A stretch of 35,321 bases of DNA from Dethiobacter alkaliphilus AHT 1 (GTDB lineage Bacteria; Bacillota; Dethiobacteria; Dethiobacterales; Dethiobacteraceae). A program made the translations under genes and the position numbers. The stretch is taken from contig NZ_ACJM01000023.1 of NCBI RefSeq assembly GCF_000174415.1, positions 1 through 35,321 on the forward strand. The letters are read 5' to 3'. Under the pieces are notes generated by a model. The model had not been told where the DNA came from. It did not search any database and saw only the letters and a list, made by a program, of their open reading frames with translations. Shown piece by piece: positions 9,975 through 10,182 of the stretch (positions are counted from its first letter, which is position 1; every line of letters begins with the position of its first letter).

Positions 9975-10182
9975 TGTTTTCACTCCTCCTGTTTGTTTCC
10001 GGCTGTATAAATTAAAAGCCGCCTATTTGTGTGTTCACAAAATAGGCGGCTTTGCCGGCATGTATAAATATAAAAGCCCTCCGGTAAATTCGGAAGGCTC
10101 CCATGCCATAAAACATCATTGTAAAATATAAAGGCTCTCCGCTGGAGAGCTTCTTTGCCATAACACGTCTGCGTGTTCAATT
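9975..10182 (-). promoter_or_regulatory. Structured nifH leader with four hairpins
   Basis: Between the predicted start of transcription (about 10182) and nifH, four stem-loops can be drawn in the RNA. They are at 10162-10177 (6 bp, 4-nt loop), 10134-10150 (7 bp, 3-nt loop), 10075-10099 (9 pairs including one G-U, 7-nt loop) and 10015-10053 (14 perfect pairs, 11-nt loop that can extend the stem with a bulge). The last three are each followed in the RNA by U-rich sequence (CUUUAUAUUU, CUUUUAUAUUU, CUUUUAAUUU), as in intrinsic terminators. I infer attenuation or RNA processing/stability control of the operon. No known riboswitch class was recognised. Confidence 0.6.
10004..10162 (-). repeat. 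Three tandem hairpin units in the nifH leader
   Basis: On the plus strand the units start at 10004, 10061 and 10120, about 57-59 bases apart. Each opens with TGTATAAATATAAA-like sequence (TGTATAAATTAAAA, TGTATAAATATAAA, TGTAAAATATAAA), continues with a GC-rich hairpin of different sequence, and ends with a TGCC motif (TGCCGGCA, TGCCATA, TGCCATA). The flanks are conserved while the stems differ but still pair. That pattern suggests selection for structure rather than recent simple duplication. Confidence 0.7.

Follow-up and report, generated by a model that had tools for sequence, protein, structure and literature searches.

The nifH operon and its upstream region

The window, by which we mean the whole stretch of 35,321 nucleotides analysed here, is an entire contig (C23) of the 3.11-Mb genome of Dethiobacter alkaliphilus AHT 1. 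It carries nifH-nifI1-nifI2-nifD-nifK, more nif genes and nifB, all on the minus strand. The nifH gene (9153..9983, start at 9983; TIGR01287, E 3e-140) heads this series, nifB is found at 1371-2636, and nifD, nifK and nifB each score above the cut-off of their family profile. The next gene upstream of nifH on the same strand encodes a protein of the EFR1 ferredoxin family (NF038196; 10244-11131, minus strand, 3′ end at 10244), which is a possible electron carrier.

Upstream of nifH we find a sigma-A-type promoter, TTGACA-17-TATGCT with an extended TG (10189..10217, minus strand; 10/12 matches), and its spacing would place the transcription start near 10182. A search upstream of nifH for a sigma-54 promoter of the -24/-12 type gave no match above chance, the single match with two mismatches lying on the opposite strand at 10256-10271, and no GlnR site (TGTNA-N6-TNACA) was found within the window; RpoN is encoded in the genome. 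GGGU-UGAC-ACCC (10221-10208, minus strand), with GCAGCUUUUUC after it, forms a short hairpin that shares sequence with the -35 box upstream of nifH; it may be the terminator of the upstream gene or a chance occurrence.

Three terminator-like hairpins precede nifH

Between the promoter and nifH the minus strand contains, as an earlier note on this DNA had proposed, three GC-rich hairpins that resemble intrinsic terminators and are followed by U-rich sequence. The first (10134..10150, minus strand) is GCUCUCC-AGC-GGAGAGC with the tail CUUUAUAUUUUAC, the second (10071..10103, minus strand) has the tail UAUUUAUA, and the third (10015..10053, minus strand) forms 14 perfect pairs and has the tail UAAUUUAU. 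In all three units the GC-rich hairpin stands directly before the U-rich tract, as is the criterion for an intrinsic terminator. The U-tracts are interrupted (UUUAUAUUUU, UUUUAUAUUUAU and UUUUAAUUUAU), and the terminators may therefore be individually leaky or weak. Folding of the leader, which had been suggested as a check, gave -82.9 kcal/mol for the 229 nt compared with -52.5 ± 4.2 kcal/mol in dinucleotide shuffles (z = -7.2; 0/200), so that the leader is far more structured than its shuffles.

The flanks that the units had been said to share on the plus strand are real, and can now be explained: TGTATAAATATAAA is how the U-rich tail of the preceding unit reads on the opposite strand, and TGCC(G/A) likewise represents GGCA, with which the hexaloop mini-hairpin described below begins. 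A spacing of 57-59 is correct for the plus-strand direct repeats, while the mini-hairpins themselves are spaced by 52 and 51 nt (starts at 10159, 10107 and 10056). A search for copies of the leader DNA elsewhere in its own genome returned only chance fragments, and the leader is therefore not a dispersed repeat. The pattern TATGGCANNNRAGC has four other sites in the genome, which we take to be chance, and a search for the leader in plasmids gave no match.

Tandem terminators are common between operons, and the EFR1-type gene upstream is co-oriented with nifH and stops at 10244, as would be expected if the hairpins were plain terminators that insulate nifH from this gene, without any control by an ANTAR protein. 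The units are, however, located downstream of the nifH promoter, where such terminators would block nif itself, and further evidence against this explanation comes from the loops.

ANTAR-type hexaloops overlap the terminators

Every unit contains a 3-bp mini-hairpin with a hexaloop, the 3′ strand of which doubles as the base of the 5′ arm of the terminator. On the minus strand these mini-hairpins read GGC[AAAGAA]GCU in unit 1 (10148..10159), GGC[AUGGGA]GCC in unit 2 (10096..10107) and GGC[AAAGCC]GCC in unit 3 (10045..10056), all with A at position 1 and G at position 4 of the loop (A1/G4). A hexaloop with A1 and G4 that overlaps a terminator is the signature of the P2 hairpin in RNAs recognised by ANTAR proteins, as described in PMC3369931, with a structure in PMC8934654. 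All three units follow the P2 rule of a stem of at least 3 bp and a hexanucleotide loop with A1 and G4.

The rule for P1, an A1/G4 hexaloop upstream of P2 at the distance of a short linker, is followed less closely. Unit 1 has AACAC[GCAGAC]GUGUU (10162..10177, minus strand), with a 5-bp stem, AC/GU closing pairs and a G1/G4 hexaloop that has G1 rather than A1. This is the fourth small hairpin (10177-10162) that had been listed with the terminator-like ones; the hairpin exists, but it has no U-tract and fits P1 rather than a terminator. Unit 2 has a weak P1, UAC[AAUGAU]GUU (10112..10123, minus strand), with an A1/G4 hexaloop and only two standard pairs (AC/GU), in a register and with a UUAU linker identical to those of unit 1, and in unit 3 no P1 was recognisable. 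P1 is essential in the eutP leader of E. faecalis, where the AC/GU closing pairs are needed (PMC3369931). As P1 is weak or absent in units 2 and 3, we consider unit 1 a firm member of the ANTAR-target RNAs, and the other two units likely ones.

The terminator and P2 exclude each other on paper. The local folds of units 1, 2 and 3 have energies of -17.6, -19.9 and -27.6 kcal/mol, as opposed to -11.4, -8.7 and -12.1 kcal/mol with P2 enforced, and in all three units the enforcement removes the outer pairs of the terminator. As this comes at a cost of 6, 11 and 15 kcal/mol (units 1-3), formation of P2 would need help from a protein or from folding kinetics.

A single ANTAR protein linked to glnA

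The genome encodes a sole ANTAR protein (PF03861, E 3.7e-20), on contig C25. Its gene (187 aa product) is located at 1480-2043 on the minus strand of locus L001 (contig C25 26472-29630) and adjoins glnA, and since amtB and glnK follow on the same strand, an ANTAR-glnA-amtB-glnK operon is likely. The leader of the ANTAR gene (L001 2126-2050, minus strand) contains GGUAC[AGCGUU]GUACC, GGC[AGCGGC]GCC and a terminator, and the gap between the ANTAR gene and glnA (L001 1460-1400, minus strand) contains GGC[AAUGGC]GCC and a terminator. These elements suggest that the ANTAR protein controls both its own gene and glnA.

A DNA pattern of P2 plus terminator gave 104 matches, fewer than the 134 of its reversed control, and for this reason structure-aware scanning was adopted. 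The scan covered 2.78 Mb (about 89% of the genome) outside ORFs, with only a minor part of the glnA-amtB gap included, and returned 30 candidates; those that were clean on inspection of stem and U-tract were the three nifH units, the ANTAR leader and the glnA element only. The genes that bear the element, namely the nifH operon, the ANTAR gene and glnA, all serve nitrogen metabolism.

The protein keeps nine of the 11 RNA-contact residues of EutV (R142, K143, K147, K149, E160, Y164, M172, N173 and R175; R168 and R177 are not kept). Its receiver domain is degenerate: Response_reg scores below the Pfam cut-off and the acidic pair is absent at the start, while the aspartate of VVVID is kept. For this reason the input signal is probably something other than ordinary phosphorylation.

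These findings bear on two further explanations. Stable leader hairpins can protect mRNA, and the imperfect U-tracts could permit read-through, so the hairpins might be kept in the full-length nif mRNA to protect its 5′ end or to mark cleavage sites. Such a role in RNA processing or stability would leave unexplained the A1/G4 hexaloops, the overlap with the 5′ arms and the shared elements that precede the ANTAR gene and glnA, and we find it very unlikely. The absence of P1 from unit 3 could instead point to nif control by a different RNA-binding regulator or by a metabolite-sensing RNA. Here it counts on the other side that a search of the window against Rfam gave no family at the gathering threshold, that the loops obey the rules described for ANTAR targets (PMC3369931), and that the leader of the only ANTAR gene contains this element too; we give this explanation marginally less credit still than a role in processing or stability.

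The signature in other nifH leaders

From a sample of 82 nifH leaders, terminator-like hairpins were collected irrespective of their loops. The hexaloop signature overlaps 22 of the 49 such hairpins before nifH (45%), compared with 16/369 (4%) elsewhere in the same loci (Fisher p 1.6e-13, with the relatedness of the sequences ignored), and conservation before nifH in relatives, which the earlier note had named as a check, is thus borne out. The 22 hexaloops before nifH comprise 18 with A1/G4 and four with G1/G4.

For a test of pairing, sites were picked by the core C[R..G..]G alone, so that pairing was not required. Both outer P2 pairs form in 22 of 28 sites, whereas 10,000 shuffles gave a mean of 11.7 and a maximum of 18, and the middle P2 pair is G-C in 13 sites and A-U in 11. 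Because the 5′ strand of P2 lies outside the main terminator stem, this result supports the P2 hairpin itself. The proposal of a functional repeated RNA, perhaps acting in serial attenuation, is well supported, with the amendment that the key conserved part is the hexaloop hairpin fused to the stems and not the variable terminator stem. P1 is less common: a clear P1 by a strict 3-bp rule occurs in 7/27 units (1.8 expected) and is lacking in most of the relatives' units, and the form AC[R..G..]GU upstream of P2 occurs at 4 of 26 sites vs 0.14-0.24 expected, a comparison that is post hoc, as it was made after the form had been seen.

We can now return to plain tandem terminators. With the hexaloop in only 4% of ordinary terminators of the same loci, its presence in three out of three units would be an improbable coincidence. 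Covariation links the two strands of P2, although a terminator would gain little from the 5′ strand, and the same signature is found before the ANTAR gene and glnA. We therefore regard insulation from the upstream gene as highly improbable, on a par with a role in RNA processing, and favor control by the ANTAR protein.

The distribution of ANTAR genes is consistent with such control. All 12 genomes with the strict motif in the nifH leader encode an ANTAR protein, compared with 20/31 genomes without the motif (p 0.02), and with three looser matches added the figures become 15/15 vs 17/28 (p 0.008). In 11 of the 12 strict-motif genomes no more than about 1.5 kb separates the ANTAR gene from a glutamine synthetase gene. 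Within Clostridium, the genomes of L042 and L043 have neither motif nor ANTAR, and those of L037 and L038 have both. In the Negativicutes loci L036 and L081 (genomes G063 and G071) the motif precedes nifH and the ANTAR gene is not adjacent to a glutamine synthetase gene. This co-occurrence is partly confounded by phylogeny, as the motif-bearing genomes are mostly Firmicutes.

Discussion

We propose that three transcription attenuators under ANTAR control stand in series in the nifH leader, a reading in which we have considerable confidence, and that nitrogenase is probably made only when the single glnA-linked ANTAR protein releases the three stops. RNA polymerase would start at the sigma-A promoter, which looks constitutive, and in the absence of active ANTAR protein each unit would fold as a terminator while it is being transcribed, so that most transcripts would stop before nifH. 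When active, presumably under nitrogen limitation, the ANTAR protein would bind the hexaloops, P1 and then P2, as the units leave the polymerase. With P2 (GGC[A..G..]GCC) held, the 5′ arm would be withdrawn from the terminator and transcription would continue into nifHI1I2DK. Leaky terminators in series multiply: three that each let 20% pass would let through less than 1% overall, figures that serve as illustration and are not data. The units, the hexaloops, their overlap with the terminators, the mutual exclusion of the two folds, the conservation and the regulon are all read from sequence; from them we infer the protein binding, the termination efficiency, the nitrogen signal and the tighter or steeper switch that three serial units would provide. 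We have weighed against ANTAR control that P1 is weak or absent in units 2 and 3, that the U-tracts are interrupted, that the receiver is atypical, and that the comparison across genomes is phylogenetically confounded.

ANTAR regulation of nif is known in Geobacter, where GnfK/GnfR of Geobacter sulfurreducens include an ANTAR-type response regulator that acts by antitermination on nitrogen-fixation transcripts. GnfK/GnfR are a dedicated two-component pair, whereas here the only ANTAR protein is linked to glnA and the nifH promoter is of the sigma-A type. NasR and AmiR each control a single attenuator and respond to nitrate or amide through fused or partner sensors. The Geobacter genes are named in PMC7962754. 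The leaders of NasR/nasF and AmiR/amiE share with the nifH leader a pair of hairpins with A1/G4 hexaloops, the second overlapping the terminator (PMC3369931). The eut attenuators controlled by EutV/EutW in Enterococcus faecalis are alike in the A1/G4 hexaloop, in a 3′ strand of P2 that is also the terminator 5′ arm, in an upstream P1 with AC/GU closing pairs, as in unit 1, and in having several attenuators per regulon (PMC3369931 and PMC8934654). They differ in responding to ethanolamine through a phosphorylated receiver, while the nifH leader has an ANTAR protein with an atypical receiver and three serial units, only one of which has a good P1.

To the knowledge of the earlier note this type of nif leader was undescribed, which does not hold. 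Ramesh et al. (2012; PMC3369931) predicted ANTAR attenuators upstream of nitrogenase genes in Pelobacter carbinolicus and of many nitrogen genes; they count 13 in six transcriptional units of Desulfotomaculum acetoxidans and include glutamate synthase of D. reducens as a regulon member. The principle is therefore already known. These predicted regulons resemble ours in the RNA signature and in occurring in anaerobes, and several sites per transcription unit are implied in D. acetoxidans; they required both P1 and P2, whereas units 2 and 3 of the nifH leader are poor in P1. Judged by its sequence, the nifH leader is a new and unusually clear candidate example of the known ANTAR mechanism. Compared with the prior predictions as their text describes them, what is distinctive is the three regular units in one leader, the P1-poor downstream units and the compact nif-glnA-ANTAR regulon. 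In the literature searched we found no experimental proof of ANTAR control at a Firmicute nif leader.

The arrangement offers one concrete and testable answer to how nitrogenase is switched on in Firmicutes without NifA-type control. If it is correct, the same glnA-linked ANTAR protein acts by antitermination on its own gene, on glnA and on nif, and the costliest of these targets has serial attenuators. The many P2-only sites raise the question of whether P1 is always needed, which has been a current one since the structure of EutV with RNA. We have also considered that an ANTAR protein loaded at P1-P2 of unit 1 might be handed over to the P1-poor units 2 and 3 in a form of processive antitermination, giving a steep on/off response to a small change in active ANTAR protein, with a steepness tuned by the number of units (1-4 in relatives). 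We hold this to be rather unlikely.

The number of units before nifH differs between lineages, with four in L004, three in L049 and L032, two in L041 and one in L003, L039, L044 and others. In L004 (1233-1490) three of the four serial units are near copies with compensatory stems (GGGAAGA/UCUUCCC vs GGGAGG/CCUCCC), which suggests that units are duplicated within the leader with their pairing preserved; the pattern in the window would fit the same process. Unit number appears to vary from one to four by such duplication, and its effect is therefore directly testable. In L032, from a Desulfoscipio MAG, an upstream gene resembling a homocitrate synthase gene, and nifV-like as far as can be read from its sequence, has in its own leader (about 1490-1574) the P1 AC[AATGTT]GT, of the form seen in the weak P1 of unit 2, the P2 GGC[ATAGTT]GCC and a terminator.
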